DNA of 64,000 bases. It comes from Phycisphaerae bacterium. GTDB taxonomy: Bacteria; Planctomycetota; Phycisphaerae; UBA1845; PWPN01. Under the pieces are notes generated by a model. It was not told the origin of the DNA. It made no database searches and was given only the letters and a program-made list of their open reading frames with translations. The stretch lies in contig JAAYDF010000361.1 in assembly GCA_012729395.1 (NCBI GenBank), positions 1 through 64,000 of the forward strand, in the 5' to 3' direction. Positions 6,055 through 59,324 of this stretch are shown piece after piece; positions within the stretch are counted from its first letter, which is position 1; every line of letters begins with the position of its first letter. The translations under genes and the position numbers were made by a program.

Positions 6055-6126
<72 letters not shown>

Positions 6127-6244
6127 GTGGATATAAAGGCTTAGCCGAACGCGACTTACGCGTACCTGCCGGCGTCAGGCAGTGCGGCTGCAATGCTCCC
6201 GGAAAGTGGTAAAATACCACTTTCCGGCGAGAAGGAGCAGTCGC

Positions 6245-7507
6245 ATGGCCATCCAATCGTCTTCGCGCATCCCGAAGTACCGTCTCCACAAACCGTCCGG
6301 TCTGGCCGTCGTCCGGCTCAACGGACAGGACACCTACCTTGGCCCTCACGGCTCCGATGAGAGCCAGCAGAAGTACGCCCGGCTCATCAAGGAGTGGCTG
6401 GCGAACCACCGGCTCCTGGCGCCCGCCGAAGAGGCGGACGGCCCGCCCGGCGATCTGACCATCCACGAACTCATCGACGTTTACCTGAAATTCGCCAAGG
6501 GCTACTACGTCAAGAACGGTCGGCCCACCGGCGAGTTGCACAACCTCAAGGACGCCCTGAAGCCGCTCGCCCAGTTGTATGGCGATTCCGCCGTCGCGAC
6601 GTTCGGCCCCCGCGCGCTCAAGGCCGTCCGCCAGGCCATGATCGACGCCGACCTGTGTCGCAGGTCGATCAACAGCCGCGTCAATCGGATTCGCCGGATG
6701 TTTCGCTGGGGCGTCGAGAATCAGATGGTCCTGCCATTGTTGCTCGAAGGACTTCGGGCGGTTGCGCCGCTTCGGCCGGGGCGTACCAACGCCCGTGAGA
6801 CCAAGCCCGTCGAACCGGTGCCCGGCCACCTGGTCGACGGCGTCCTGCGCGTCGCTCCCCGGCAGATCGCCGCCATGCTCCAGCTTCAACTGCTGACCGG
6901 CATGAGGCCCGGCGAGGTGACCATCATGCGAATGGCCGACATCGACATGAACGGCCGTGCCTGGGCCTACACGCCACAGAGCCACAAGACCGAGCACCAC
7001 GGCCGAGTCCGCGTGATCTACCTGGGACCCAAGGCCCAACAGGAGCTTCAGCCGTTCATCAAACCGAACCTGACCGCCTACCTGTTCGATCCGAGCGAGG
7101 TCGTCACCGAATATCGTCAACGTATCCGCGAGGAAGCGAAGATCTGCCGGCCGGAGCACAAGCTGAGCAAGCGTCGCACGCGAGCCAGGCGTGGCCCGGG
7201 CGACCAGTACACCACCAACACTTACGCCCGGGCAATCGTCAAGGCGTGTGACAAGGCGTTTCCGCCACCGAAGGAGCTGCAGGCCGACGAGTTGACGCCC
7301 AAGCAAAGGGCTGCCCTGCGGGCGTGGCGGAAGGCCCACCGGTTCTCGCCGAACCAGTTGCGGCACAACGCGGCCACGCAGATCCGCAAGGAGTTCGGCA
7401 TCGAGGCCGCCCGGACCGTGCTGGGCCACACGTCGTCGGCGGTGACCGAAATCTACGCCGCCATGGATTTGGCCCGGGCCTCGGAGGTCATGCTGCGGAT
7501 CGGCTAA
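6245..7507 (+). CDS. Tyrosine recombinase / integrase, adjacent to tRNA-Gly
   Basis: LLTGMRPGEVTIMRMADID, LRHNAATQIRKEFGIEAARTVLGHTSSAVTEIYAAMD; ATG 6245 downstream of GGAG. Confidence 0.9.
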   Translation: MAIQSSSRIPKYRLHKPSGLAVVRLNGQDTYLGPHGSDESQQKYARLIKEWLANHRLLAPAEEADGPPGDLTIHELIDVYLKFAKGYYVKNGRPTGELHNLKDALKPLAQLYGDSAVATFGPRALKAVRQAMIDADLCRRSINSRVNRIRRMFRWGVENQMVLPLLLEGLRAVAPLRPGRTNARETKPVEPVPGHLVDGVLRVAPRQIAAMLQLQLLTGMRPGEVTIMRMADIDMNGRAWAYTPQSHKTEHHGRVRVIYLGPKAQQELQPFIKPNLTAYLFDPSEVVTEYRQRIREEAKICRPEHKLSKRRTRARRGPGDQYTTNTYARAIVKACDKAFPPPKELQADELTPKQRAALRAWRKAHRFSPNQLRHNAATQIRKEFGIEAARTVLGHTSSAVTEIYAAMDLARASEVMLRIG

Positions 7508-22945: not shown

Positions 22946-23538
22946 CGTTAGACCTCCTCGACCTAAAGCATGGCTGGGGCTGTCTCCTGTTGACTGCCCG
23001 CCGCCGCCATAGACCACCGCGGGTATCCGCGCACATTCAACTTCGTGCCCGATGACCGAACTGTCTGAAATGGGGAGCGGTTGAGCTGGTTGCTGCCTTC
23101 CCCCGCCGATATCAGAGCCGGTCACTATCTGAGCCTCAGAGCCTTCCCGAGCCCTGGCATGAGACGACCTTCCAGGATACGGGATCTGGCCTTGCCACTC
23201 AATCAGATTCCGGGCTATTCCGGTCGATTTGTCACGTTTTGCGAAGTCCCCGGCGTAAGTCACGAGCCAGGGCTAAATAGGACCTTTATGGTGCCATACA
23301 TTAGCCTATTTCACACATGGCGACGGGCATGGAGCACCTCATAAGCGATCGGAGGAAGCGCCCGGTAATCACGGCTTGCGGCGTTCCTCTCAGTGTTCCA
23401 GACTGCCGGGAGAGTTGTGTTGGACGCGTCCCATCGTCCGCGAGGGATCAGCAGAGGATCAGCATAGCTGTGAGTCGTCCCTGGTGAGCCGACTCGGTTT
23501 CATGTCCGCCCTGGTCGCCCCGCGTGCGGTTGCGGCGG

Positions 23539-23577
23539 GCAACGGCGTGCCAGGCGTACCTGATCACTGGCCGTTGC
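23539..23577 (+). repeat. 39-nt structured hairpin, family copy 1
   Basis: GCAACG-GCGT-GCCAG-gcgtacctgatca-CTGGC-CGTTGC. Confidence 0.85.
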
Positions 23578-23695
23578 CATGCCGCCGCTGCCCTGGGCGG
23601 GTCGAACGCGGGCGGTGGACCATGTGGAGCGCCGTCCCTGCGGGCCGACGCCCTGTGTTGTTCCGCCTTGGTTGACCGGCTCCGGTTGCGACGGA

Positions 23696-23734
23696 GCAAC
23701 AGCGTGCCAGGAGTACCTGATCACTGGCTGTTGC
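23696..23734 (+). repeat. 39-nt structured hairpin, family copy 2 (compensatory change)
   Basis: GCAACA-GCGT-GCCAG-gagtacctgatca-CTGGC-TGTTGC. Confidence 0.85.
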
Positions 23735-23786
23735 CCGGTCCGTCGCGGCCCTGCGCCGCCCAACACCCGGCGGCGTCCTCCCTCTC

Positions 23787-23833
23787 GGGTTTTTGTTTTC
23801 CACCCGAAGCGGGTGAATGAAAAACAAAAACCC
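23787..23833 (+). promoter_or_regulatory. 47-nt long palindrome directly upstream of the SD of the 23854 gene, copy A
   Basis: gggtttttgttttccacccgaagcgggtgaatgaaaaacaaaaaccc, then ttttgaaggagg...ATG. Confidence 0.8.
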
Positions 23834-23853
23834 TTTTGAAGGAGGAACGCAAC

Positions 23854-24123
23854 ATGAGAACAACGTTTGAACTTGGTCAGACCGTCGCTACCGCCAACGC
23901 CGCCAGTACGCTGGACCCGCGGGACATCACCAAGGCCCTGAACCGTCACAGCACGGGCGATTGGGGCGACGTGAGCCCCGCGGACTGGGCGGAGAACCAA
24001 CTCTCGCTGGAGGAGGGCTTTCGGCTGTTCTCGGTCTACCATGCCGAGGACGGCACGAAGTTCTGGATCATCACCGAGGCGGACCGCAGCGTCACCACGG
24101 TGCTGCTGCCCGAGGACTACTGA
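23854..24123 (+). CDS. Small acidic protein of unknown function
   Basis: MRTTFELGQTVATANAASTLDPRDITKALNRHSTGDWGDVSPADWAENQLSLEEGFRLFSVY...; strong SD gaaggagg. Confidence 0.8.
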   Translation: MRTTFELGQTVATANAASTLDPRDITKALNRHSTGDWGDVSPADWAENQLSLEEGFRLFSVYHAEDGTKFWIITEADRSVTTVLLPEDY

Positions 24124-24265
24124 CCGCGTCCATTCCGGCCGGGGACACCCCCCGGCCTTTTTCACATCATGGGCAACCCCGCCCTTCGGGAAATCGGTCA
24201 GTCGCCCCTGACGGGTCGACTGCGTTTGATGTCCGCCCTGGTCGCTCCGCGCACGGTTGCGGCGG

Positions 24266-24304
24266 GCAACGGCGTGCCAGGCGTACCTGATCACTGGCCG
24301 TTGC
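24266..24304 (+). repeat. 39-nt structured hairpin, family copy 3 (identical to copy 1)
   Basis: gcaacggcgtgccaggcgtacctgatcactggccgttgc. Confidence 0.85.
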
Positions 24305-24421
24305 CATGCCGCCGCTGCCCTTGGCGGACCGAACGCGGGCGGCGGGACCATGCGGTGAGTCGTCCCTGCGGGCCGACTCCGTTTGAAATCCGCCTGCGCT
24401 GACCGGCTTCGGTGGCGACGA

Positions 24422-24460
24422 GCAACAGCGTGCCAGGGGTACCTGTTCACTGGCTGTTGC
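24422..24460 (+). repeat. 39-nt structured hairpin, family copy 4
   Basis: GCAACA-GCGT-GCCAG-gggtacctgttca-CTGGC-TGTTGC. Confidence 0.85.
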
Positions 24461-24510
24461 TTGCCGTCGCGGCCCTGCGCCGTCCAGCATCCGGCGGCTT
24501 CCTCCTCATC

Positions 24511-24557
24511 GGGTTTTTGTTTTCCACCCGAAGCGGGTGAATGAAAAACAAAAACCC
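24511..24557 (+). promoter_or_regulatory. 47-nt long palindrome directly upstream of the SD of ardC, copy B (identical to copy A)
   Basis: Exact copy of 23787-23833, then ttattgaggaggaaagcacgATG. Confidence 0.8.
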
Positions 24558-24577
24558 TTATTGAGGAGGAAAGCACG

Positions 24578-25396
24578 ATGAAACGAGAACAAGTGAAACA
24601 ACTCGCGGACGACGCTCTGAACACGCTGGCCGAGGCGCTGGAACAGGGCAAGAGCGAAGCCTTGACCGACTACCTGGCCATGGTGGCAAAGTTCCACCAG
24701 TACAGCTTTCGCAACATCATGTTGATTGCGTCGCAGCGGCCCGACGCCTGCCGGGTAGCTGGATTCAACACCTGGCGGAAGCTTGGCCGCTTCGTCAAGA
24801 AAGGCGAGAAAGGCATTGTCATCATCGCCCCGATGGTGTTCAAGAAGCAGGATGCCGAGTCGGGAAGCGACGAGGAAGGACGGCGCCTGTGGTTCCGGGC
24901 CGCCTACGTGTTCGACGTTTCGCAGACCGACGGCGAGCCGCTGCCCGAGCCCGGCACGGTATCAGGTGATCCGGCCGGCTACGCCGAACGCTTGAAGGCC
25001 TTCATTGCGGTTCAAGGTATCCGGCTTGAGTACGCCGACACACTCGGCGGCGCGGATGGCAGATCGCACGGCGGCCGGATTGAACTGCTCAAAGGCCTCA
25101 CGCCGGCGGCGGAGTTCTCGACGCTGGCCCATGAGCTGGCCCACGAGATGATGCACCACGGCGAGAAGCGAGACGGCAGCACCCGCACCAGCCGGGAAAC
25201 CGAGGCTGAAGCCGTGGCCTTCGTGGTGTGTCGTGCGATCGGCCTGGAGACCTCGACCGCGGCACAGGATTACATCCAGTTCCACGACGGGAACACCGAG
25301 ACCCTCGCGGCGGCACTGGACCGAATCCAGCACACGGCCGCGGCGATCATCGAAGCCGTCACCGAGGAGCCGCAGACGGATGCACAGGCCGCCTGA
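24578..25396 (+). CDS. ardC: ArdC-like antirestriction / ssDNA-binding + zincin metallopeptidase domain protein
   Basis: YSFRNIMLIASQRPDACRVAGFNTWRKLGRFVKKGEKGI (ArdC N domain) and TLAHELAHEMMHH (HExxH). Confidence 0.88.
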   Translation: MKREQVKQLADDALNTLAEALEQGKSEALTDYLAMVAKFHQYSFRNIMLIASQRPDACRVAGFNTWRKLGRFVKKGEKGIVIIAPMVFKKQDAESGSDEEGRRLWFRAAYVFDVSQTDGEPLPEPGTVSGDPAGYAERLKAFIAVQGIRLEYADTLGGADGRSHGGRIELLKGLTPAAEFSTLAHELAHEMMHHGEKRDGSTRTSRETEAEAVAFVVCRAIGLETSTAAQDYIQFHDGNTETLAAALDRIQHTAAAIIEAVTEEPQTDAQAA

Positions 25397-25676: not shown

Positions 25677-25961
25677 ATGAGTGAGAACAAACCCATTCAC
25701 GCCATCAGCTACGGGGCCGTGCGGGCCGCGATCTGGCGAAACGATACGGCCAAGGGCGTTTTCTACGACGTGTCGTTCGCGCGGAGGTACCGCGACGGCG
25801 AAGCGTGGCTCAGCACCCACGTCTTCGGCACGCGCGACCTGCCGATCCTGGCCAAGGCCGCCCTGGACGCCCACACGTGGATTCAGAGTCAGCCCAAGGG
25901 AGACACGAACGCGGCCGAGGATCCGGCGGACCTGGATGTTTACGAAGGGCCGCCCTACTGA
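25677..25961 (+). CDS. Small protein, paralog of the 39279 gene
   Basis: KPIHAISYGAVRAAIWRNDTAKGVFYDVSFARRYRDGEAWLSTHVFGTRDLPILAKAALDAHTWI; SD aggaggg. Confidence 0.8.
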   Translation: MSENKPIHAISYGAVRAAIWRNDTAKGVFYDVSFARRYRDGEAWLSTHVFGTRDLPILAKAALDAHTWIQSQPKGDTNAAEDPADLDVYEGPPY

Positions 25962-27598: not shown

Positions 27599-28399
27599 AT
27601 GGTTGTGAAACCGACGACTGTCGAACAACTCCTTCAAACCATCCGCACCGCTTCCGATCCAGAGCGGGCTGCAGCCCTGGACGCTTTGGTGGAAGCGGTC
27701 TACGTTCGTCTGCGGGAGTACAAGGATCGCCATTTCCCGCGTCAGGACACGACCGGCGAGAACATCTCGGACGTCCTCCAGATGGCGATCAAATCCTTCC
27801 TGAGTGACGTCCGCCACGACCGCATTCCCCCGCAACTCAGTTGGGATGCGCTGGCTTTCGGCTACTTCCGCAAGAAGATCCTTGCGACCATGCGGAGATC
27901 CGCTTCTCGATCACGTGTGCTTCGCATGGCCGAGAATTCAAGCCTTGACCGGAAACCTGCCCCGCCGCCCGCGGAAGCGGATGGCTCGGAGCCGGCCATC
28001 GAGGCGGTGCTGAGCATCCTTCCGTCCGGCGATGGTTCGGCGACGGTATTTCGGGAACTGGTGGTCAACGGCAAGACCCAGAAGCAGGTCAGTGAGTCGC
28101 TGGGTCTTTCCGAACGGAGCGTCGGCCAGAAACGAGCCGCGATCCTCAACCATCTGGTCGATGCGCTGCTGGCCGAGGTCGAGTTGAATCCGCCCGTTCG
28201 GGAGGCCCTGCAGCTTGTTCTCGACCCGCGCACCCGCGTCCCAGCCGTCAGCCAGGGGCAAGGAAAACGGCTGAGCGAGTTTGAGCGGCGCATCATGGCG
28301 GCTGCCGATGCGGTCGGCGTGGAGGTGTCCGTCATGACGCGACGCGTCAACCAGGCCCTGGAACAACTTGCGGAGCAACTGCATGAACGCGAAACCTGA
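27599..28399 (+). CDS. ECF-type RNA polymerase sigma factor-like protein
   Basis: Sigma-2/sigma-4-like layout; region 4 'VFRELVVNGKTQKQVSESLGLSERSVGQKRAAILNHL'. Confidence 0.65.
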   Translation: MVVKPTTVEQLLQTIRTASDPERAAALDALVEAVYVRLREYKDRHFPRQDTTGENISDVLQMAIKSFLSDVRHDRIPPQLSWDALAFGYFRKKILATMRRSASRSRVLRMAENSSLDRKPAPPPAEADGSEPAIEAVLSILPSGDGSATVFRELVVNGKTQKQVSESLGLSERSVGQKRAAILNHLVDALLAEVELNPPVREALQLVLDPRTRVPAVSQGQGKRLSEFERRIMAAADAVGVEVSVMTRRVNQALEQLAEQLHERET

Positions 28400-30065
28400 C
28401 CCGGTTGAGATGGCCGCCGACGAGTTCCAGCACCTGCTCGCGTCGAGCCATCAGGAAGCCTTGGCCCATGTCTCACGCCTGCTGGACACGTTGCCGCAGG
28501 AGCGTCGATACTGGGGTGGCGTGCGTTTGATGGCCGACCACATGGCCGCCGTTTTCGACCGGCTGGGCGTTATCGATCCAAACCTGTACGCGGCATTCGA
28601 CACCGCGCTCGTTCAGGAAGCGGCCCGGGCAGTCCTTGCTGACATCGAACCCGCCAAAGGCCTTGGCCTGCCCGTGTTCCGGCAAGGTCCGCCGCGTTAC
28701 CTGCTCAGTCGTGCCATGGCCGCAGGCGGATTCGGATCGGTCTGGATGGCGACCGTGAACGGCCAAGACGCTTCCGTCGCGATCAAGACGCCGTGGGTGC
28801 TGACGGAGAATCCGCACTCCTGGGAGGATCGCGTGGGGATGCTGCGCGAGGAGGCGGCAATTCTGACCCGCCTGAAGCATCCCGGCATCGTCGGTTGTAT
28901 CGAGATGATCGCCGAGCCCGGCGAGATCGTTTACCTGGTCACGGAGATACTCCCTGGCGGCACCCTGGCGGCGCATGCCAAACCCGTGAAACTTCAAGCC
29001 GCCATCCGATGGGCCGCCCAAGTGGCCGACGCCGTGGACCACCTTCGGTCTGAAGCCATCGTGCATCGTGATCTCTCGCTCGGCAATGTCGGTCTGGACG
29101 GTGCCGGCAACACCAAGGTTTTTGACTTCGGCTTGGCCGTCGGGGTCGAGCAGCGTGCTGACCATGAAGGTCAGCGCGCCGGTACGCCCGGGTTCATGCC
29201 CCCGGAGCAGGTGTTTGGCGTCAGCCGCGAGTTGGGCTGCCGCTCTGATGTCCCCGCCGTCGGCGCCATGCTGTACGAGATGGTCACCGGGCATTCGCCG
29301 TTTCCAGACCGCGCGACTGAGAATGTGGCTGTCGATTGGATGTCCGGCGAGCTTCAGCAGCGGGCCGAGGCACAGACCGTTCCCGAAATCCTTCGCCCCA
29401 TTCTGAAGCGCTGCTTCGCCTACCATCAGGAGGATCGCTACCCGACCGCGGGCCAACTGGCGGGAGCCCTGCGGGCGCTGGCCGCGTTCACGCCGCTGCA
29501 AGCCTGGTGGGCGGGACGCAGTGCGGGAACGGCGTGCGTCTACGCGGAACAGGCCAGCGCAGCCTTCACACAACTCCAGCAGATGCCGGCCGAGAAACTG
29601 AATCCCAACTACATCGCCATGGCCTTGCTGCAAGGCGTCGGTGTCATCGAAGAATTCGACCGCATGGGCCGTCTGCTCGCGGCTCTCGCCGTGGAGCTTC
29701 CGACGCACGGGGAATTGCTGGACCCCCGACGTCGGATTCGCAAGCCGATCACAGCCGAGGAGCTTCCGGTTGTCGCGGCGGAGCTGGGCAAGCTGATTCA
29801 GGCTACCGACGAACTCGGCAACGTCGCCCGTCAGGTAGCGGTCGACTCCCCGCAGCCCGCACCCGAACTGTTTGAACTCGCCTGCATGGTTCATTCCCTT
29901 CCTGCCCAGGCCGAATGGCCTGACCGGATTGAGGAACTGACCGTCACGGCGGGATTTCCCGAAGCGTTGGCCACGTCGCTACACAGCGCCTGGACCGACG
30001 GCCCCAACCCACTCCAAAACGCGATTGCCGCGTGCGATGCCCACGCCGAAAGCGTGCTCGGCTGA
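28383..30065 (+). CDS. Hanks-type Ser/Thr protein kinase
   Basis: SRAMAAGGFGSVWMA, VAIKTPW, VHRDLSLGNVGLD, VFDFGLAVG, GTPGFMPPEQ motifs; start overlaps the sigma-factor stop. Confidence 0.9.
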   Translation: MNAKPDPVEMAADEFQHLLASSHQEALAHVSRLLDTLPQERRYWGGVRLMADHMAAVFDRLGVIDPNLYAAFDTALVQEAARAVLADIEPAKGLGLPVFRQGPPRYLLSRAMAAGGFGSVWMATVNGQDASVAIKTPWVLTENPHSWEDRVGMLREEAAILTRLKHPGIVGCIEMIAEPGEIVYLVTEILPGGTLAAHAKPVKLQAAIRWAAQVADAVDHLRSEAIVHRDLSLGNVGLDGAGNTKVFDFGLAVGVEQRADHEGQRAGTPGFMPPEQVFGVSRELGCRSDVPAVGAMLYEMVTGHSPFPDRATENVAVDWMSGELQQRAEAQTVPEILRPILKRCFAYHQEDRYPTAGQLAGALRALAAFTPLQAWWAGRSAGTACVYAEQASAAFTQLQQMPAEKLNPNYIAMALLQGVGVIEEFDRMGRLLAALAVELPTHGELLDPRRRIRKPITAEELPVVAAELGKLIQATDELGNVARQVAVDSPQPAPELFELACMVHSLPAQAEWPDRIEELTVTAGFPEALATSLHSAWTDGPNPLQNAIAACDAHAESVLG

Positions 30066-30770: not shown

Positions 30771-31082
30771 ATGGCAACGGTTTCTTTCAAGCTTGACGAT
30801 GCTCTGTACGCGGAACTGCAGGAGCTCGCTGGGCAGCGGACCGGACTCAGCGCCAACATCCTGTGTCGCGAGATCATCATCGACCACCTGAAGGATGCTG
30901 GCCGCGAACGTGTCTGCAGCGCCCTGACCAAGATCGAGCAGGACCTCCAGCAACTGCACAAAGACGCGATCACCGGCACCTACGTGTTGCTGCTGATGGC
31001 GGGCAAGCTCACGGACCGTCAAGAGGCCAAGGCATGGATCGCCAAGAATATGCTCGGCCCCGCCCTGGAGGAGAACGGCTGA
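30771..31082 (+). CDS. Ribbon-helix-helix-like relaxosome accessory protein candidate
   Basis: MATVSFKLDDALYAELQELAGQRTGLSANILCREIIIDHL; stop overlaps relaxase start. Confidence 0.6.
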   Translation: MATVSFKLDDALYAELQELAGQRTGLSANILCREIIIDHLKDAGRERVCSALTKIEQDLQQLHKDAITGTYVLLLMAGKLTDRQEAKAWIAKNMLGPALEENG

Positions 31083-33091
31083 TGATGAAAGTGGCGAAAA
31101 TATCCAAGCCGACTTACTACCTGCGCGAGCAGTCGGCCGAATACTACCTCGGCGGTGAGTGGCCGGTACGCATTCTCGGGACCGCGGCTGTCGCACTGGG
31201 CATCGATGACCGCACCACCCGGGAGGGGCTGGCCAATCTTTTCGTGGGCTTGTCGCCCGACGGAACCAAACGCCTTGTGCAGGATCAGCAGTATCGCGAC
31301 GTTCACCAGGGTTGCGGCAAGGTTCGCCAGAAGAACGTCGGGTGGGACGTTACGTTCAGCCCGGACAAGCTCGTCTCGGTTTACTGGGCCATGGCCGATG
31401 AGGCTACACGCCGCAAGATCGAAGCGGCCCTTGAACACGCGGTCGAGAAGGCCATCGGCTATCTGGAGCGCGAGGCCGCGTTCACGCGACGAGGCCAGGG
31501 TGGCGCCCGTCGTGAACGGGCCAGGCTCCTCGCCGCCACGTTCACGCATCCGGCCAGCAGAGCGGGCGACCCGCAGCTTCACGTCCACGCGGTTGTATTC
31601 AACATCGGCCTTCGCCGCGACGGCACCACGGGCACCATCGTCAGCAAGCCGCTCTTTGACCATCAGAAGGTATGCGGCAGCATCTTCCGCACCGAGTTGG
31701 CCAACCGACTTCCGCCGCGGATCGCACAGTCGTTGGTAAACGCGGGCCACGACCGTGAGAGCGATCTTCTCGTGCGGGTCTGCGAGCACTTTTCAACGCG
31801 ATCCCGGGACATCAGAAAGCGGCTGGCTGATCCCAACCATACCGAGAAGGACGCAACCCGAGTTGCTCTGGCCAGCCGCCCGCCGAAGGGTCAGGAGCCA
31901 CCGCTCCAGGTCATGCTGGACCGCTGGCGTGCTGAGGTTCGCCAGTTCGGCATCGCACCGGAGGACATTCAGCGCTGGATTGAACGTCCTCTCACCGTTA
32001 CACCCAGACCTGAGTTCAAGCCCATTCTCGCCCAGGCCGTGCGGACGCTTAACGACGAGCAGGATGTGTTTGTCGAGCGCGACATCGTTCAACACGCGCT
32101 CGACGCCTCCACCGCATCCGGCCTCGATGCGGACCTGGTGATCACCGCCACCCGTGAGCACCTTCGCAACCGCCGCGACTTCATCCCGCTGGCCACGGTC
32201 CGCCAGCGAGTTGCGGGAGTCATTCGTGAGTTGAGGTACATGACTCGGGCGACGGACGACACGCTCGCGGATATCGAACGACAGATAAGACGACTCTCTC
32301 ACGATCGGACTTTCGTCATGCGCAACCACGTGGTCGAAGGATTGATCACGCAGTACAGCACGACCCGCCACCCGGTGCTGGAAGAGATGAAACACCACCG
32401 CGCCCAACTCATCCGGGCTGCACGCCGGCAACCGACACGGCCCATCGATCGCAACCGCATTCGAGAACAGGCGGCAGTGAGGCTTGATCCACGATGGGCG
32501 GTATACCTGCGAGGCCTCTTGCAGGCGCCCGGCCGCGTGGTGGTGATGAATGATTGGCCGTCTGCACATCGCGATCTGGCCCTCAAGGCCGCCGCCGAGG
32601 CCTGGAGCCGGTCGGGCCAGGTCGTTTTGGCCTGCACGCATCGGCTCAAGGATGCCAAGCGGCTGGAGGCCAACACCGGCATATCCACAGTCAGCCTGCG
32701 GCGCTTCGAACTCAAGAGTCGCCCCGATCTGCTCTTCCAACTGCGATGGCACGCAATGGGACTGGTACGCACCGCATTCGGAGCACCGGCCGCACGCCTG
32801 AGTCCGCCGCCGCTTGAAAGATCGCAAGTGCTCATCGTCGATCGTGCCGACACGCTCAGGCCGCAGGAGATCAGGATGATCGTCGAGGAGTCCGACCGGC
32901 ACGGGGCCAAGGTCGTGTTGCTGATGGCGCCGCGTGCTGATCACCACCGCGGCCGGAACCCCGCGACCGCGAACCTGCTGAGCCGCTGCGCTGCATCGAG
33001 CTGGCGGCATCCGGGCAGATCGTGGCAGCCCGACCTGACCGACCAGACGAAGCCGGCGGAACACCAACGGCCACAGGAATTGGAGAGGTAG
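31082..33091 (+). CDS. MobF-family (TrwC/TraI-like) conjugative relaxase with degenerate helicase-like C-terminal half
   Basis: GWDVTFSPDKLVSVYWAMAD; metal-binding HVHAV in DPQLHVHAVVFNIGLRRDG; C-terminal half aligns with RecD/AAA_30-like helicase but Walker motifs are lost. Confidence 0.88.
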   Translation: MMKVAKISKPTYYLREQSAEYYLGGEWPVRILGTAAVALGIDDRTTREGLANLFVGLSPDGTKRLVQDQQYRDVHQGCGKVRQKNVGWDVTFSPDKLVSVYWAMADEATRRKIEAALEHAVEKAIGYLEREAAFTRRGQGGARRERARLLAATFTHPASRAGDPQLHVHAVVFNIGLRRDGTTGTIVSKPLFDHQKVCGSIFRTELANRLPPRIAQSLVNAGHDRESDLLVRVCEHFSTRSRDIRKRLADPNHTEKDATRVALASRPPKGQEPPLQVMLDRWRAEVRQFGIAPEDIQRWIERPLTVTPRPEFKPILAQAVRTLNDEQDVFVERDIVQHALDASTASGLDADLVITATREHLRNRRDFIPLATVRQRVAGVIRELRYMTRATDDTLADIERQIRRLSHDRTFVMRNHVVEGLITQYSTTRHPVLEEMKHHRAQLIRAARRQPTRPIDRNRIREQAAVRLDPRWAVYLRGLLQAPGRVVVMNDWPSAHRDLALKAAAEAWSRSGQVVLACTHRLKDAKRLEANTGISTVSLRRFELKSRPDLLFQLRWHAMGLVRTAFGAPAARLSPPPLERSQVLIVDRADTLRPQEIRMIVEESDRHGAKVVLLMAPRADHHRGRNPATANLLSRCAASSWRHPGRSWQPDLTDQTKPAEHQRPQELER

Positions 33092-33140: not shown

Positions 33141-33632
33141 ATGAATAAGAACGTTCATTTTTCGAGCCAGAGCGACGATTGGGAAACCCCAGATGAGTTC
33201 TTTCATGAACTCAACAAGGTATTCCACTTCGGCCTTGACGTCTGCGCCTCAGCCACGAATGCCAAGTGCGAGCGATACTTCACGCGGGAAGACGACGCCC
33301 TGACACAGGAGTGGAAAGGGACGGTGTGGATGAATCCCCCGTACGGGCGCCAGATCGGGGACTTCATGAAGAAGGCGTATGAGGAGTCGCTCAAGGGTGC
33401 AACGGTTGTATGCCTCGTTCCCAGCCGAACGGATACGGAGTGGTGGCACCGTTATGCGAAGCACGGCCTGTGTATTTTTATCCGCAGGAGATTGAAGTTC
33501 GGCGGGTCCGCGAACGCCGCACCCTTCCCCTCTGCGATCGTTATCTTCTTCGGTGGCAGACTGGGGGAAGCCACAAAGCCGATTGAGGATCTGTTCTGGC
33601 CAGACACGGGAAGTCGAAAGGCGCACGCATGA
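33141..33632 (+). CDS. Phage/plasmid-type Dam-like DNA N6-adenine methyltransferase
   Basis: WETPDEFFHELNKVFHFGLDVCASATNAKCERYFTREDDALTQEW...VWMNPPYGRQIGDFMKKAYEES; NPPY catalytic motif. Confidence 0.88.
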   Translation: MNKNVHFSSQSDDWETPDEFFHELNKVFHFGLDVCASATNAKCERYFTREDDALTQEWKGTVWMNPPYGRQIGDFMKKAYEESLKGATVVCLVPSRTDTEWWHRYAKHGLCIFIRRRLKFGGSANAAPFPSAIVIFFGGRLGEATKPIEDLFWPDTGSRKAHA

Positions 33633-35551
33633 ACCGTACACATATCGGACAAACCGGCGCAGCAGTCTGTCGCTACCTGATGCTCATGCTGCCGATCATC
33701 GTCAGCATCTTCGCGTTCTTCACTGTGATGATGGCATCCATGTCAGTGGTCGTGCCGTCACTTGGCGAATCGTCCCGGGTGTCGTTGGTATGCGCGGTGT
33801 GCGCGAGCGTATGGTTCTCCGTTCCGCTGCTAAGCCTGTTCGGCAGGCTCGGTATACACCAGGCCCGCCTCACCACGCTATTGGTCCCGTGCCTGTTGAG
33901 ACTCACGTTCAGTCTCCACATTCCGCTTGTGATGTTCGGCATCGCACTTGTCGCATCCTTCCAGGACTGGAATCCGGACTGGGTTCATCCGATTGCCTTG
34001 ATCCTTACCCTGGTCGTCCCGCCGGCGGTCCTGCAATGGCTTTCGAGCGATCCCTACCGCGCCCAGTTTCTGCGTGGAACCCGGATGATCACCATGCGAA
34101 CCGCCCGCCAGCGAGCCAGGCAAGCCCGGCGCCCCGGTGAAGCCGTGCTGGACTGGTGCGGCATTCCGCTGCCCGACTCGCTCGCGGTCGGCCACTTCCT
34201 GCTGGTCGGGGCTCCGGGTTCCGGCAAAACCGTGAGCCTGCGTCTGCTCATGCAGAGCGTGCTGCCGTACATTCACGCGGATACCGACTGGCGAGCACTG
34301 ATCTACGACGCCAAACAGGACATCCTGCCCATCCTCAGCGGCATGAAGCTCCGGTGCCCGGTGGTCACACTGAACGCACTGGACCAGCGCGGGGCTGCCT
34401 GGGACATGGCCAAGGACATCGACAGTCACGCCGTCGCCCTGCAGGTGGCCGCCAATCTCATCCCGGAAGAGCAAGGCCACAACGCATTCTTCGTCAAGGC
34501 CGCCCGGGATCTGCTGGCGGCTGTCATGGTGGCATCACACCTGTCGCGACCCGGCGGCTGGACGCTGGCCGACGTGGTTCTGACGCTCTCCGACAGGGAT
34601 CGCGCCAAGCGGCTTCTCCAGCAGCACCCTGAGACAGCGCACATTGCCCGCGAGTATTTCACTCGCGACCCCCGCACGCTGGCCAATATCCAGCAGACGA
34701 TCACCGCACACATGTCCATGCTGCGGCCGATCGCTGCCGCATGGGCGCGGGCCACGCACCGCATCAGCCTTCACGACTGGTTTCAAGGCGAGTTCATCCT
34801 GGTGCTGGGCAACGACGAATCGCTCAGAGGGCCGATCGACGCGTTGAACGCGGCTATTCTTCAAAGACTGTCCCAGATCGCCCTGGCGCAATCCGAGAGT
34901 CAACGCAGACGAATGTGGTTCTTCCTGGATGAGCTGAAGGCGGCGGGCAAGCTCGACTGCGTCGCAGAGTTGATGACCAAGGGCCGTTCCAAGGGTGTGC
35001 GCTGCTTCATCGCCATCCAGACCATCGAAGGTTTTCGAGAGGTGTACGGTGACCACAAGGCCGACGACATCACCGGACTGTGCACCAACAAGGCATTCCT
35101 GAGGACCGATTCTGTCATCACCGCCAAGTGGGCCGCCGAGATCATCGGTGAAGCCGAGTGGCGGGAGTGGCGGCAGACCCGGCAAACCAGTGGCAACGGC
35201 TCGTCCACGTCCATGGCCGAACAGATCGTCATTCGCGCTACCATGCTGGCCTGTGAGTTGATGCGATTACTCCTGGCTAATCAACGTCGCTACTTTGGGT
35301 ACTTCGTCACGCCCGGCATCGGCGTGTACCGGGGAAGCGTTCGCATTGCAGGTCGTCTGTGCGGGCTGGGGCGCGTCGCGAATTTCCTGCCCCGGCCGCC
35401 GGAGCACCAGTACATCATGGATGACGGCGAAGATACCGCTCCCGGCGAGACCGCCGGGCCCAGCGGGGCCACCGGAGCATCTCTCGACGACCTCGCCTCG
35501 CCATGGGAAGATGATGGAGATTGGGGCCGTGACTACGGCGAGGTGGCGTAG
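33629..35551 (+). CDS. VirD4/TraD-like type IV coupling protein
   Basis: N-terminal TM segments; LLVGAPGSGKTVSLRLLMQ Walker A; MWFFLDELKAAGKLDCVAELMTKGRSKGVRCFIAIQT; ATGA overlap with methylase stop. Confidence 0.88.
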   Translation: MNRTHIGQTGAAVCRYLMLMLPIIVSIFAFFTVMMASMSVVVPSLGESSRVSLVCAVCASVWFSVPLLSLFGRLGIHQARLTTLLVPCLLRLTFSLHIPLVMFGIALVASFQDWNPDWVHPIALILTLVVPPAVLQWLSSDPYRAQFLRGTRMITMRTARQRARQARRPGEAVLDWCGIPLPDSLAVGHFLLVGAPGSGKTVSLRLLMQSVLPYIHADTDWRALIYDAKQDILPILSGMKLRCPVVTLNALDQRGAAWDMAKDIDSHAVALQVAANLIPEEQGHNAFFVKAARDLLAAVMVASHLSRPGGWTLADVVLTLSDRDRAKRLLQQHPETAHIAREYFTRDPRTLANIQQTITAHMSMLRPIAAAWARATHRISLHDWFQGEFILVLGNDESLRGPIDALNAAILQRLSQIALAQSESQRRRMWFFLDELKAAGKLDCVAELMTKGRSKGVRCFIAIQTIEGFREVYGDHKADDITGLCTNKAFLRTDSVITAKWAAEIIGEAEWREWRQTRQTSGNGSSTSMAEQIVIRATMLACELMRLLLANQRRYFGYFVTPGIGVYRGSVRIAGRLCGLGRVANFLPRPPEHQYIMDDGEDTAPGETAGPSGATGASLDDLASPWEDDGDWGRDYGEVA

Positions 35552-39240: not shown

Positions 39241-39284
39241 TCCCGAACTCTAACCCGCAATCTTGCGGAGCAAGGAGCATGGCA

Positions 39285-39557
39285 ATGTCGAGCAAACCCG
39301 TTCACGAGATTCGGCTGGGCTCGGTGAAAGCCGCGATCTGGGCCAACGACACCGACAGCGGCGTCCGTCACAATGTGACCGTCGCCCGCCTGTACCGTGA
39401 AGACGACCAGTGGAAGACCACATCGTCTTTCGGCCGCGATGACCTGCCGCTGCTGGTCAAAGCCGTCGATCAGGCCCATACCTGGATCTTCACCGAATCC
39501 CAGAATGGCCGAAGCCGGACCAAGGGACGCGCCAACGGCCGTTCCGAGGACCAGTGA
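39285..39557 (+). CDS. Small protein, paralog of the 25677 gene
   Basis: KPVHEIRLGSVKAAIWANDTDSGVRHNVTVARLYREDDQWKTTSSFGRDDLPLLVKAVDQAHTWI. Confidence 0.8.
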   Translation: MSSKPVHEIRLGSVKAAIWANDTDSGVRHNVTVARLYREDDQWKTTSSFGRDDLPLLVKAVDQAHTWIFTESQNGRSRTKGRANGRSEDQ

Positions 39558-39735: not shown

Positions 39736-40725
39736 ATGGCGACCGGTTTTCCTGTCATCCTCGAACGGTGTTTGGCCGTGTCCCGCACGACAAACAACGA
39801 TGCGCCGGCACTGGTACGCCAGTGCGGACCCGCCGCCGAGACCGCCTGGCACGACTTTTTCTCCGGCCAACTGCCCAACGACCATACCCGGGCCGCCTAT
39901 ACGCACGCTCTGAGGCGTTTTCTGGCCTGGTGTGAGGGTATGGGTAAGCCACTTCCCGCCGTCATGGCGGGCGACGTGGGCGATTACTTCCGCGAGCACC
40001 CGGGCAGCACATCAACCAAGAAGCAACACCTGGCCGCCCTGCGACGGTTCTTCAACCTCCTGGTGGAGCGGCATGTCTGCCTGATCAACCCCGCCGCCGT
40101 CGCCCAACTTGAGCGGCTCACCATCGTGGAAGGCAAGACCCCCCAGATCACCCCGTCACAGATCCACAAGTTGCTGGAATCGTTGCCCCCCGGGAAGCTC
40201 GCCGGCCTGCGAGACCGGGCAATCATCGGCATCCTCAGCTTCACCGGTGCCAGAGCCGGTGCGGTCGCCAAACTCCGCCACCAGGACCTGTACTACGTGG
40301 ATACCCAGTGGATGCTGCACTTCGACGAGAAAGGCGGCAAGTCCCGCGAGATCCCGGTCCGTCACGACCTGGAAAGGGTGCTCTTCGAGTACGTGGACGC
40401 GGCCGGGCTGCGCGACGCCGGCGGCAAGGTGCCATTACTCCGCACGGCCGTGCGGAAGGAAAACCGGCTGACAGACCGTGGCATGACCGCCAACGACGTG
40501 TGCCGCATGGTCAAACGCCGGCTGAAGCGGGCGGGACTGCCCGCAAACCTGTCGGCCCATTCGTTTCGCGTCGCCGTGGCCACGGACCTGTTTGACCAGG
40601 GCGTCGATACCAAGGATATTCAGCAATTACTCGGGCACTCGGACCCGAGAACCACCCGGCTTTACGACAGAACGGACAGGAAGGTCACCAGGAATCTCGT
40701 GGAGAGGATTCGTATAGCGATCTGA
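39736..40725 (+). CDS. Second tyrosine recombinase (XerC/D-like), internal to element
   Basis: SFTGARAGAVAKLRHQDL...LSAHSFRVAVATDLFDQGVDTKDIQQLLGHSDPRTTRLYDRTD; R-HxxR-H-Y order. Confidence 0.85.
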   Translation: MATGFPVILERCLAVSRTTNNDAPALVRQCGPAAETAWHDFFSGQLPNDHTRAAYTHALRRFLAWCEGMGKPLPAVMAGDVGDYFREHPGSTSTKKQHLAALRRFFNLLVERHVCLINPAAVAQLERLTIVEGKTPQITPSQIHKLLESLPPGKLAGLRDRAIIGILSFTGARAGAVAKLRHQDLYYVDTQWMLHFDEKGGKSREIPVRHDLERVLFEYVDAAGLRDAGGKVPLLRTAVRKENRLTDRGMTANDVCRMVKRRLKRAGLPANLSAHSFRVAVATDLFDQGVDTKDIQQLLGHSDPRTTRLYDRTDRKVTRNLVERIRIAI

Positions 40726-41952: not shown

Positions 41953-42558
41953 ATGTCCAACAACACCGTTCATCTTGAGCAGATCGCCGACGTGTTCCCC
42001 GGCCACTACGAGCAGGGCTCCGGCAAGGACGAACACGCGGGCACGCACCGGCTGGTGTTCATCGGGTCAATCGATCCAGGACCAGGCCACCGGCTCGTCC
42101 CGGAGAAATGCCCGCGTTTCACGCCCAAGCTCGAACCGGGTGATGCCATCCTGCAGTCGGGCGACCTGATCATGCCGGCACGCGGGGATCGGCAGGACGT
42201 TGCGTACCTTGACGCCCCGCCAGATGCACGGCCGCTGGTTGCGGCTTCCTTTCTCCACGTGATACGGCCGCATCGCGACGCTCTGGACCCCGGCTATCTG
42301 GCATGGTGGCTGAATCAACCCAGCGTGCAGGCACGGGTGGCCGCATTCGTTCGCGGCTCGAACATGCCGTTCCTGCCGCTGGAGGAAACGCGAGGAATCA
42401 AGGTAACACTGCCCTCGCTCGGCGTGCAGCGCCGTATCGCCGAACTGTATCGCTTGTCCATCCAGGAGTTTGACCTTACAACGGCCATCCGCGAGCACCG
42501 ACAGCGACTGATTCACGCGCTCGCCTTTCAAGCCGTTCAGGGAGCTATCCGTACATGA
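41953..42558 (+). CDS. Single-TRD (half) HsdS-like specificity protein
   Basis: HRLVFIGSIDPG...LAWWLNQPSVQARVAAFVRGSNMPFLPLEETRGIKVTLPSLGVQRRIAELYRLSIQE; ATGA overlap with hsdM. Confidence 0.65.
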   Translation: MSNNTVHLEQIADVFPGHYEQGSGKDEHAGTHRLVFIGSIDPGPGHRLVPEKCPRFTPKLEPGDAILQSGDLIMPARGDRQDVAYLDAPPDARPLVAASFLHVIRPHRDALDPGYLAWWLNQPSVQARVAAFVRGSNMPFLPLEETRGIKVTLPSLGVQRRIAELYRLSIQEFDLTTAIREHRQRLIHALAFQAVQGAIRT

Positions 42559-44063
42559 GTCAACAGAAGCAGACGACCAAGGAAGTCTTCGCGGCCGTGT
42601 GGGCGGCCTGCGACACGTTTCGTGGCGCGGTGGACCCCGCCAACTACAAGAACTACGTCCTGACCATGCTCTTCCTCAAATACCTGTCTGACATGTCGCA
42701 CGAGCGGCGGGAAGAACTGGAGCAGAAGTACAAGGGCGACAAGACCCGAGTTCAACGTGCCCTGCGTAACGAGCGGTTCCTTCTGCCCGCGGAGTCGGAT
42801 TTCAAGTACCTCTACCAGCACCGCGACGCCGACAATGTTGGCGAGTTGATCAACATCGCCCTGGCCAACCTGGAAGATGAGAACAAGGCCAAGCTGGAGA
42901 ACGTGTTCGGCAACGTGGATTTCAACAGCGAGGCCGAACTGGGCAGCACGCGAGAGCGAAACACTCGGCTCAAGGCGGTGCTGGAAGACTTCAACCGGAT
43001 CGATCTGCGGCCGTCGCATCTGGCCGGTCGGGATACCATCGGCGACTCCTACGAGTACCTGATCGCCCGTTTCGCGGCCGGCGCCGGCAAGAAGGCCGGC
43101 GAGTTCTACACGCCGCCGGAGGTTTCCGACCTGCTTGCCCGGCTGGTTAGGCCCAGGAAAGGTGCCCGCATCCTCGACCCGGCCTGTGGCTCGGGGTCAC
43201 TGCTGATCAAGGTCGGCCGACAGGTCGGCTCGGATGATTTCGCCCTGTACGGCCAGGAGTCCAATGGCTCGACCTGGGCGCTGTGCAAGATGAACATGTT
43301 TCTGCACCGCATGGACCAGGCCCGCATCGAACGTTGCGACACGCTGCGAAGGCCTAAACTGGTGGAAAACGACGAGCTGATGCGGTTCGACATTGTCGTG
43401 GCCAACCCGCCGTTCAGCTTGGATAAGTGGGGACAGGAGGATGCCAAGAACGACCGGTTCAACCGCTTCTTCCGCGGGCTGCCGCCCAAGAGCCGCGGCG
43501 ACTACGCGTTCATCAGCCACATGATTGAAACCGCCCTGGACGGCTGCGGCCGTGTCGGTGTGATTGTCCCGCACGGCGTGTTGTTCCGCGGCGGAGCTGA
43601 AGGCCGCATACGCCGGCAGCTTGTCGAGGACAACTTGCTCGACCTGGTGCTTGGGCTGCCGCCGAATCTGTTCTACGGTACGGGAATTCCCGCCGCCATC
43701 CTGATCTTCGACAAGTCACGGAAAGGCGACAAGAAGCGCAAGAACGTCCTGTTCATTGACGCCAGCCGGGAGTTCGCCCAGGGACCTAATCAGAACCGGC
43801 TGCGTGACGAAGATATGGAGAAGATCTGTGCTACGTATGACGCGTACAAGGACGTTGAGAAATACGCCCACGCGGCTACGGCACAGGAGATGACGGAGAA
43901 TGACTTTAACCTCAACATCCCACGCTATGTCGACACGTTCGAAGAAGAGGAGACAGTCGACATCAGGGCAACACAGAAAGAAATAGAGCGGCTGGAAGGG
44001 GAGCTCGCGAAGGTTCGTGCTCAGATGATGACACATCTAAAGGAGTTGGGAATCCATGCCTGA
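42555..44063 (+). CDS. hsdM: Type I restriction-modification DNA methyltransferase subunit
   Basis: GEFYTPPEVSDLLARLVRPRKGARILDPACGSGSLLIKVGRQ; VVANPPFSLDKW. Confidence 0.95.
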   Translation: MSQQKQTTKEVFAAVWAACDTFRGAVDPANYKNYVLTMLFLKYLSDMSHERREELEQKYKGDKTRVQRALRNERFLLPAESDFKYLYQHRDADNVGELINIALANLEDENKAKLENVFGNVDFNSEAELGSTRERNTRLKAVLEDFNRIDLRPSHLAGRDTIGDSYEYLIARFAAGAGKKAGEFYTPPEVSDLLARLVRPRKGARILDPACGSGSLLIKVGRQVGSDDFALYGQESNGSTWALCKMNMFLHRMDQARIERCDTLRRPKLVENDELMRFDIVVANPPFSLDKWGQEDAKNDRFNRFFRGLPPKSRGDYAFISHMIETALDGCGRVGVIVPHGVLFRGGAEGRIRRQLVEDNLLDLVLGLPPNLFYGTGIPAAILIFDKSRKGDKKRKNVLFIDASREFAQGPNQNRLRDEDMEKICATYDAYKDVEKYAHAATAQEMTENDFNLNIPRYVDTFEEEETVDIRATQKEIERLEGELAKVRAQMMTHLKELGIHA

Positions 44064-45351
44064 AACCGTCTCCAGATTCTTGGGCAGGCTTCCTACGGGC
44101 TGGCGGGTCGTGCCTCTCGGCGACGTTGTCGCCAAGAGCCGGCCGATTGTTTATGGCATCGTACAAGCAGGACCGCATGTTCCCGATGGCGTACCGTACA
44201 TCCGTAGTACTGATGTCAACGGTGTTCTTCGGGCAGACAAGCTTCCGAGGACAGAGCAAGCTATTGCAGGTCGCTACAAGCGTTCCAGCCTGAAGCCAGG
44301 CGACATCGTCTTCTCTTTGCGCGGAAACACGGGCACCACTTGCGTCGTTCCCAAATCCCTCTCGGGCGCCAACCTTACTCAAGGCACTGCACGAATCTCT
44401 GTTTCACCTGAGTTCTGCACAAGCTACGTTCGGATAGCGCTTAACTCGGAGCGCGTACGTCGAAGAATCGATGCAGTCTGTAAGGGGAGTACTTTCCGCG
44501 AGATTACCATCGAGGACTTGCGCAAACTAGCACTTCCGATGCCTCCGCGTGAGAAGCAGGAAAGCATAGCTGCAATTGTGGATGGATGGGATAAGGCAGA
44601 GCATGGACTCAATGGCCAGATCAAGAGAAAACACCGCCTACTTCGTGGGTTGATTCAGCAGCTTCTCACGAGTCGCCGAAGGTTTTCTGGTATCTGCCGG
44701 GAAGCATGGAAAGAGGTGTTGATTGGAGACATTCTCCGAGAGGCCGACCGCCCGGTTGAGTGGAATGACGAGGCGATCTACGACCTAGTCAGCGTGCGAA
44801 GGTGGGCGGGTGGCGTCTACACTCGCAATCGGCTTGCTGGCCGAGAGATCAAAGTCAAGAAGCTGAAGCGGATTAAGGCCGGCGACATCCTCATATCGCA
44901 CATTCAGTCTGCCTACGGCGCGATGGCCATGGTCAGCGACGATCATGACGGTCACTGCGTCTCCGAACTGTACACCGTGCTCATCCCCCGCGACGCCAGC
45001 ACATTCGACCGACGGTTCTTCGCATGGCTATGCCGCCGTAAGTGGATGTGGCACCAGGCGTATGTTGCCAGCAATGGCTTCCTGGCGGAGCGGCTACGTA
45101 TCAGTTTTGACCCTGCGTCGTTCCTGAAACGAGCCATACATATTCCCCCCACGATCGAGGAACAACGGGCGATCGCCGACGTGCTCGACACGGCCCAGAA
45201 GGAAATCGACCTGCTCAGGCAGCTTCGCGATCAGATCCAGAAACAGAAACGCGGCCTGATGCAGAAACTGTTGACCGGCCAGATCCCTGTACCGGCAGTG
45301 AAGGAGACAAAGGATGGCTCAGAGAGTCGGGCTCAGCGCGTATCGCGTTGA
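44056..45351 (+). CDS. hsdS: Type I restriction-modification specificity subunit (two TRDs)
   Basis: Two TRD units each ending with 'LPMPPREKQESIAAIVDGWDKAE' / 'IHIPPTIEEQRAIADVLDTAQKEIDLLRQLRDQIQKQKRGLMQKLLTGQIPV'. Confidence 0.9.
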   Translation: MPETVSRFLGRLPTGWRVVPLGDVVAKSRPIVYGIVQAGPHVPDGVPYIRSTDVNGVLRADKLPRTEQAIAGRYKRSSLKPGDIVFSLRGNTGTTCVVPKSLSGANLTQGTARISVSPEFCTSYVRIALNSERVRRRIDAVCKGSTFREITIEDLRKLALPMPPREKQESIAAIVDGWDKAEHGLNGQIKRKHRLLRGLIQQLLTSRRRFSGICREAWKEVLIGDILREADRPVEWNDEAIYDLVSVRRWAGGVYTRNRLAGREIKVKKLKRIKAGDILISHIQSAYGAMAMVSDDHDGHCVSELYTVLIPRDASTFDRRFFAWLCRRKWMWHQAYVASNGFLAERLRISFDPASFLKRAIHIPPTIEEQRAIADVLDTAQKEIDLLRQLRDQIQKQKRGLMQKLLTGQIPVPAVKETKDGSESRAQRVSR

Positions 45352-46285: not shown

Positions 46286-46298
46286 GGAGGCAGTGGCG

Positions 46299-54984: not shown

Positions 54985-55018
54985 GAACCGGACAAGCACG
55001 TCTCCATGCATCCGGCTC
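54985..55018 (-). ncRNA. Group II intron domain V-like hairpin
   Basis: Minus strand GAGCCGGATGCATG-GAGA-CGTGCTTGTCCGGTTC: 34 nt, AGC triad, GNRA-type loop, matches domain V pattern. Confidence 0.6.
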
Positions 55019-57924: not shown

Positions 57925-58453
57925 GTTCCGTCAAGGTTATGCTGGACATTTCCTGAAGAATTTTGCCTCGACCTCCAACTTGAATCAAGCCTCCCACCAG
58001 CCCGCTTCTCCAGCCCCGGAGGACCACCTTCCGCCCAGGCCCAGATCGGACATAACTATCGTCTTCACAGCATGATATGACCGCATGAGCCCTGCCGGGC
58101 GGCGGTCCCATTCCTTCCTGGCAGGGAGCGTCCACAGTCGGGTGGAGCGTGTCCAGGAGGCTCTGCTCGCTTAGCCGGGACGCGATGAATGGTGGCGGGA
58201 CACGCTGACGACTTCGGGCGTTCGCCCTGCACGGGACGGTCGCCGCGGTTCGCCAGCCCCATCAGCTCGTTGCTGGTCTGTTCTGCTTTCTTCGCCAAGC
58301 TTCGCGGCCCGCGGCTCACTGCCGGTCTCGTCAGCATCGGCCGTGGCCAGGCCAAGCAGAGCCCGCCTTAGGGCGGGGCCTGTCACGCCCGCTGCTTACT
58401 CCTCGACCTGTTCGCGACGTCCGCTGCGCCCATGTCCTCCGGCAGGGGCCTTT

Positions 58454-58480
58454 CGTTCGCCAATCTCTTGCGAGCGAACG
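58454..58480 (+). promoter_or_regulatory. Hairpin upstream of second ardC
   Basis: CGTTCGC/GCGAACG (58454-58460/58474-58480), then aaaaaccccttttacctggagg...ATG, a layout similar to 24511-24577. Confidence 0.5.
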
Positions 58481-58511
58481 GAAAAACCCCTTTTACCTGG
58501 AGGACAAAACC

Positions 58512-59324
58512 ATGAAAGCAGAACAAGCCAAGAAACTCGCCGACGAATCACTGGCCAACCTCGCCACCGCCCTCGAGCAGGGACGAAGCGAGACACTCAC
58601 CGCGTACCTGACCACCATGGCCCGCTTCCACCGTTACAGCTTCGGCAACATCATGCTCATTGCCTCCCAGAAGCCCGATGCCACCCGCGTCGCCGGCTTC
58701 CAGACCTGGAAGAAGCTCGGCCGCTGGGTCAAGGCCGGCGAGAAGGGCATCCTCATCTTTGCCCCTATCGTCATCCGGCCGAAAGAGGACCAGCCCGCGG
58801 ATACCGCTTCTCAGGAGCCGCGCACACTTCTGCGGTTCAAGGCGGTCTACGTTTTCGATGTGAGCCAGACCGATGGCCAGCAGCTCCCCGAATTCGCCAC
58901 GGTCTCCGGCAACCCCAACGGCCATACCGACCGCCTCAAGGCCTTCATCGCTCAGCAGGGCATCTCGCTGGAGTACGCGGACGACTTGGACGGTGCCGAC
59001 GGAGCCTCTGCCGGCGGACGGATCATTCTCCACACCGGTCTTACCCCGGCCAAGGAGTTCTCGGTTCTCGCCCACGAGGCCGCCCACGAGATGCTCCATC
59101 ACGCCGACAACGGTCCCCGCCCCAGCAAGACCGTCCGCGAGACCGAAGCCGAAGCCGTCGCGTTCGTCGTTTGCGAGGCGATCGGTTTGGCGTCCAACGG
59201 TGCCGCCGCCGACTACATCCAGCTCTACAACGGCGACGAAGACACGCTGGCCGCCTCTCTCGACCGCATCCAGAAGACCGCCACCGCGATCATCGCCGCC
59301 ATCGCCGAGGCTCCGGTCGAGTGA
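58512..59324 (+). CDS. ardC: ArdC-like antirestriction protein, second copy
   Basis: YSFGNIMLIASQKPDATRVAGFQTWKKLGRWVKAGEKGI; VLAHEAAHEMLHH; clearly homologous to 24578-25396. Confidence 0.88.
   Translation: MKAEQAKKLADESLANLATALEQGRSETLTAYLTTMARFHRYSFGNIMLIASQKPDATRVAGFQTWKKLGRWVKAGEKGILIFAPIVIRPKEDQPADTASQEPRTLLRFKAVYVFDVSQTDGQQLPEFATVSGNPNGHTDRLKAFIAQQGISLEYADDLDGADGASAGGRIILHTGLTPAKEFSVLAHEAAHEMLHHADNGPRPSKTVRETEAEAVAFVVCEAIGLASNGAAADYIQLYNGDEDTLAASLDRIQKTATAIIAAIAEAPVE

Follow-up and report, generated by a model that had tools for sequence, protein, structure and literature searches.

A covariation-supported, two-part leader at the start codons of ardC and partner genes in planctomycete mobile elements

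Results

A duplicated structured leader lies upstream of ardC and a small gene

The 64,000-nucleotide stretch of a Phycisphaerae bacterium contig analyzed here (JAAYDF010000361.1; "the window") carries two ardC genes, a small gene of 89 aa upstream of the first, and genes for a conjugative relaxase and a coupling protein (Table 1). ardC, the relaxase gene and the coupling protein gene all point in the same direction, and a CopG-like RHH protein is also encoded in the window. A sigma-factor-like gene at 27599 (below the Pfam cut-off; region 27599-30065) and a Ser/Thr protein kinase gene at 28383 lie between ardC and the relaxase gene. Type I restriction-modification genes are found on the same stretch as both ardC genes (HsdM at 42555, a likely HsdS at 44056 and an HsdR-like gene at 46927; region 42555-50220). 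Two small paralogues of a KPVHEIRLG/AAIWANDT-type family, at 25677-25961 and 39279-39557, have no NCBIfam match, and the former is also without a Pfam or PHROG match. There is a tRNA-Gly at 6055, and three tyrosine recombinase genes (6182-7507, 39736-40725 and 55474-56967) suggest that at least two integrated elements lie in the window. Matches to group II intron domains (RF00029) occur in or near these elements, at 54928-55020 on the minus strand of the window and at 843-936 of the homologous locus L161.

An earlier note on this DNA, made from the sequence alone, had described four covarying copies of a 39-nt hairpin in a block that occurs twice, before the small gene and before ardC. The four copies are indeed there, with starts at 23539, 23696, 24266 and 24422, and the hairpin pattern with up to three mismatches has four matches in the window versus none in 100 shuffles. 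The block is likewise present twice, about 727 nt apart and at 87-89% identity, and both leaders fold far better than shuffled sequence (z of -5.4 and -7.9). Because the block is duplicated, however, these copies represent only two types of hairpin (copy 1 has the same hairpin sequence as copy 3), and the replacement of G-C by A-T seen in the window amounts to roughly one event; covariation therefore had to be sought in homologues. In each block the two hairpins are followed by a 47-nt palindrome that extends to a longer hairpin, at the base of which the Shine-Dalgarno (SD) sequence is paired with TCCTCC. We refer to the upstream hairpin as Element I and to the hairpin of about 75 nt at the start codon as Element II. 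A third, diverged leader of the same kind lies 5' of the second ardC; the earlier note had described neither this leader nor the extension of the palindrome. Element I occurs twice in each duplicated leader of the window, versus once in most homologues.

Table 1. Genes and leader elements in the window.
Feature	Coordinates	Strand	Remarks
Element I copy h1	23529..23589	+	39-nt hairpin 23539-23577 with outer stem; pattern, R1 and R2 matches
Element I copy h2	23685..23747	+	39-nt hairpin 23696-23734; pattern, R1 and R2 matches
Element II, SD-sequestering hairpin of the 89-aa gene	23771..23856	+	Contains palindrome 23787-23833; R3 32.2 bits
Small gene, 89 aa	23854..24123	+	Family on many conjugative plasmids; no Pfam, NCBIfam or PHROG name
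Element I copy h3	24256..24316	+	Pattern, R1 and R2 matches
Element I copy h4	24412..24471	+	Pattern, R1 and R2 matches
Element II, SD-sequestering hairpin of ardC	24495..24580	+	Contains palindrome 24511-24557; R3 36.9 bits
ardC	24578..25396	+	ArdcN (PF08401), Peptidase_M78 (PF06114)
TrwC-type (MOBF) relaxase	31082..33091	+	Context
TrwB-type coupling protein	33629..35551	+	Context
Element I of the second ardC	58330..58400	+	R2 65.6 bits
Element II of the second ardC	58430..58514	+	R3 61.9 bits
Second ardC	58512..59324	+	65% identical to the first ardC

Homologous leaders are reached through ArdC

Searches with the hairpin itself stayed close to home. A covariance model built from the four window copies (R1) was run on 395 genomes of the phylum and found only this element, apart from a chance match in coding sequence (L087). 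The exact core pattern gave 10 single matches in 264 Gb of genomes, versus about 8 expected in random sequence by a rough estimate, and the hairpin core pattern had no matches in viral contigs. The pattern scans did no better than chance, and the family was reached only via ArdC homologues. Of the genomes searched, these are encoded by 16 of 395 in the phylum, by 58 of 398 in the class and, in a second class, by 32 of 398. Among 115 distinct upstream regions, most of those belonging to ArdC proteins of more than about 55% identity have a hairpin of about 75 nt directly 5' of the start codon, and some ardC homologues, mostly more distant ones, are without the leader. An automatic helix screen (score of at least 7) identified 32 of 67 leaders of ArdC proteins with at least 50% identity, versus 28 of 281 other gene starts at the same loci, and this comparison is conservative because several starts are miscalled.

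Outside these genomes, ardC genes of Bacillota and other plasmids (six of seven records annotated) mostly sit directly behind an upstream gene with no obvious comparable leader, and the one such record screened with the Element II model R3, L193, had no match. An ArdC search of viral contigs gave no usable matches, and most viral-contig relatives of the 89-aa gene have no such leader. Across the whole window and 20 homologous loci, no Rfam family (STAXI included) matched the leaders at its gathering score, and a permissive Rfam search of the leader region returned sub-threshold chance matches only. The leaders thus form a new, uncatalogued family of planctomycete mobile elements, supported by the covariation described below.

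Element II pairs the SD sequence and covaries

Element II base pairs the SD sequence with an upstream anti-SD arm, and in the members inspected it is this SD that forms the hairpin base. In an alignment of 30 homologous leaders made without reference to structure (A2), 89.5% of the Element II pairs are standard pairs. Double-sided changes number 49, whereas shuffles give 17.7 and slid controls no more than 18, and the covariation score was reached by none of 500 shuffles. The base stems differ widely, from TTCCTCCTCA/TGAGGAGGAA and GTCCTCC/GGAGGAC to GCTCCTTG/CAAGGAGC and GGCTTCTCC/GGAGAAGCC, and the base helix covaries around the SD, as in GTCCTCC/GGAGGAC, GCTCCTT/AAGGAGC and GGCTTCTCC/GGAGAAGCC. 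SD/anti-SD pairing is therefore kept by compensatory change across homologues, although the counts for this helix are inflated and must be discounted, because the A2 seeds were partly chosen for it. The apical helix played no part in the choice of sequences, and it shows double-sided changes at six of its eight pairs. At the apex is an invariant GYGA, the A of which is bulged in the fold used. No alternative (anti-anti-SD) pairing able to open Element II was seen.

Genome-wide, R3 found 39 matches in 22 of 110 genomes of the order, and every one ends at a start codon, as determined from ardC positions and from reading of the remaining loci. By downstream gene, 35 matches lie before ardC or its remnants, two before genes of the 89-aa type and two before methyltransferase-like genes. 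In a set of 16 ardC-bearing genomes, R3 gave 35 matches. The two 89-aa-type genes are that of the window and one in genome G045, which also has Element I at 45.9 bits; the two methyltransferase-like genes (L291 in G052 and L294 in G091) are named from sequence motifs only. The leader is also found 5' of other small protein genes of the KPVHEIRLG type (L143, L159 and L166); the window's own copies of that type have no R3 match. Far from being placed at random, the leader is thus confined to a few kinds of mobile-element gene, and the scatter of hairpins away from ardC-type genes that the earlier note had named as evidence against its proposal did not occur. Its position before methyltransferase-like genes suggests that the regulon includes other anti-restriction functions.

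This distribution bears on one alternative, namely that the hairpins are single-strand initiation or priming sites, or protein-binding sites, on the transferred strand, used for replication restart or as a landing site for relaxase or primase, with their adjacency to ardC being incidental. Short conserved motifs (GYGA and GTCAC) in otherwise covarying stems do resemble a protein-recognized hairpin, and tandem copies, as in the window, would fit such a site. Yet every genome-wide match to Element II ends exactly at a start codon with the SD included, and the copies precede several unrelated genes and never a bare intergenic site, which makes this explanation very improbable.

Element I has a conserved core on a compensated stem

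In homologues, Element I has the form GCAnCGGYCGYGCC-stem-GTCACG(C/T)CCGYTGC at about -175 to -126, with a shared core of GCC-stem-GTCAC and compensatory changes in the stem. It also occurs 5' of a small gene and of a methyltransferase gene in other genomes. The 39-nt hairpins of the window score as members under the Element I model R2, at 25-35 bits, although they are also among its seeds. The structure in R2 is one column out of register, so that the model was used for detection only and pair counts were made with a corrected structure on alignment A3. The earlier note had drawn the inner stem as GCCAG/CTGGC with a GCGT bulge, which did not hold up in homologues: the conserved inner stem is CAGG/CCTG, with the compensated variants CGGA/TCCG, CACG/CGTG, CAGA/TCTG, CAGC/GCTG and CGCA/TGCG. 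It is compensated in 38 of 50 Element I copies (the four window copies being counted separately), but since the count demanded at least four Watson-Crick pairs in homologues, pairing as such is built into the count and the information lies only in the variety of pairs. The covariation score of the outer stem was reached by none of 500 shuffles, though this stem varies little. Covariation in homologues, the absence of which the earlier note had named as refuting its proposal, was thus seen for both elements, even though the change within the window could not establish it. The ardC upstream regions L146, L148, L200 and L201 carry Element I in another class, GCACGCCTCACGCCGGAC...GTCCGTCATTCGTCCTGC, whose core is longer.

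The shape of Element I also speaks to a double-stranded operator, in which the palindromes would be bound by a repressor such as one of the element's RHH proteins. There is precedent, as p576, a plasmid of the pLS20 family, controls its establishment genes with an RHH repressor, and the window encodes a CopG-like RHH protein of its own. However, the apical part between the paired arms of Element I ranges from 4 to about 50 nt across homologues, which is incompatible with a rigid operator, and the stems covary without their sequence being kept. We regard an operator as the least probable of the readings considered.

The leader may act as RNA rather than as single-stranded DNA

The earlier note had proposed a single-stranded DNA promoter of the Frpo type or, alternatively, a regulatory RNA family. 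Under the promoter reading, the entering strand would fold into hairpins I and II and be read by RNA polymerase, and the SD lock would silence read-through once the DNA is double-stranded. The leader does lie 5' of anti-restriction genes, ArdC acts in the recipient, and there is the precedent of leading regions with Frpo (PMC11541004). In the window, moreover, ardC has the same direction as the relaxase and coupling protein genes, so that with an oriT located between them the transferred strand would serve as template. Most homologues are arranged differently. Among 23 leader-bearing elements with a TrwC relaxase gene within 25 kb, ardC and the relaxase gene, with orientation counted by hand from gene positions, are divergent in 18, co-directional in four (relaxase downstream in two, as in the window, and upstream in two) and convergent in one. 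In the 18 divergent elements, an oriT situated between the two genes would mean that the coding strand is the one transferred, and on pLS20, too, the transferred strand is the non-template strand (PMC8708921). Nor does the leader look like a promoter: no sigma-70-like site was found between 23250 and 24700, although the consensus may not be that of the host, and across homologues the stems range from GC-rich to AT-rich, preserving their pairing but no promoter sequence, as should not be the case for a promoter. Finally, because the SD is in the base of the hairpin, transcription starting at that base would begin at or after the SD. A single-stranded promoter is, on this evidence, distinctly unlikely. 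What stands of the earlier interpretation is a covarying, structured leader family at anti-restriction genes of conjugative or mobilizable elements, for which regulatory RNA, with the SD at the hairpin base and an A/T-rich arm beside it, appears to be the better fit.

Mismatch counts might seem to point elsewhere. In the coding sense, A.C mismatches exceed G.U pairs by 18:0 in Element I and 42:13 in non-redundant Element II, counts that are confounded by drift on one arm. We considered the excess as a signal of template-strand single-stranded DNA and rejected it once the pairs were split by arm. The 5'/3' counts are TA 227, CA 39 and TG 1; AT 41 and GT 12; GC 168 and AC 3; and CG 207. Thus A/T to G/C drift is confined to the 5' arm, the 3' arm beside the SD keeps A/T, and T to C changes do not outnumber A to G changes, which give G.U. 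The coding sense has few G.U pairs. As the A.C excess is one-arm drift, the count says nothing about the strand and gives no positive support to RNA. An A/T-rich 3' arm is expected if that arm must sometimes be single-stranded for ribosomes. UUCG tetraloops, sought as a signature of RNA, are not enriched.

The same raw excess of A.C over G.U would favor an antisense arrangement, in which a structured RNA from the opposite strand represses ardC in trans, in the manner of FinP and traJ. With the excess explained by drift from A/T to G/C on one arm, and with no terminator-like site on the opposite strand of the leader, we consider an antisense RNA quite improbable. We infer instead that the leader acts as coding-sense RNA.

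Discussion

Leaders that sequester the SD are known from the e, soc and 49 genes of phage T4, and translational operators with a bulged A from the replicase gene of MS2/R17. The planctomycete leader resembles these in hiding the SD in a hairpin with a bulged A in the stem, but unlike them it links this lock with a conserved hairpin farther upstream and with a group of mobile-element genes.

The closest known system, by analogy, is EGeRS1 of the Bacillus plasmid pLS20, whose structured leaders, rich in inverted repeats, are duplicated before ardC and other establishment operons (PMC8708921). No sigma-A promoter was found in EGeRS1, which blocks an upstream promoter in its native orientation only, by a mechanism that is not known (PMC8708921). 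Like EGeRS1, the window leader is repeated, twice at a distance of 727 nt and a third time before the second ardC, and in other genomes it stands before ardC, small genes and methyltransferase-like genes. The two nevertheless differ, as EGeRS1 is 420-750 bp long and belongs to another phylum and another sequence family. We re-found the five EGeRS1 copies on pLS20, and they, unlike the planctomycete leaders, show no clear SD-sequestering hairpin; R2 had no match on this plasmid and the best R3 match had an E-value of 0.22. STAXI is a tandem structured motif near antirestriction, SSB, topoisomerase and integrase genes, for which the authors left RNA versus single-stranded DNA open (PMC2864571), but it consists of repeated pseudoknots, whereas the planctomycete leaders are hairpins adjoining the SD. 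The Frpo/ssi single-stranded promoters of F and ColIb-P9 are likewise hairpins, located on conjugative plasmids 5' of genes for anti-restriction and establishment (PMC11541004). They differ in having -35/-10 elements, none of which were seen in the planctomycete leaders, and, given an oriT between relaxase and ardC, in a strand geometry that most homologues do not share.

We think it probable that the region is a cis-regulatory mRNA leader of two structured elements that locks the translation of establishment and anti-restriction genes. When transcription passes through the leader, the anti-SD arm of Element II would pair with the SD and leave the gene untranslated, so that ardC and its partner genes would stay off in an established cell even when transcription enters the element from promoters outside it. 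The hairpin farther upstream, Element I, has a conserved core and would most likely be bound by whatever acts on the lock. Expression would presumably follow entry into the recipient, where ArdC is needed. Such timing is plausible because ArdC of plasmid R388 is required in the recipient and not in the donor (PMC7213743). In a more specific version, which we hold to be unlikely, the leader would be a DNA-entry switch: Element I would sense a signal found only shortly after conjugation and free the SD lock of Element II for a one-time burst of anti-restriction proteins. The signal could be the absence of a factor encoded by the element, a host factor, or the folding of the incoming sense strand.

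Control of anti-restriction timed to entry is known for few systems, namely the single-stranded promoters of E. coli plasmids, the repressor of p576 and the unexplained structured leader of pLS20. A leader family of two parts from another phylum, attached to a defined set of genes, offers a concrete model that can be mutated, by breaking and restoring the SD/anti-SD helix. The leader may also serve as bait, as the 89-aa, KPVHEIRLG-type and methyltransferase-like proteins that it precedes are candidate establishment or anti-defense genes.
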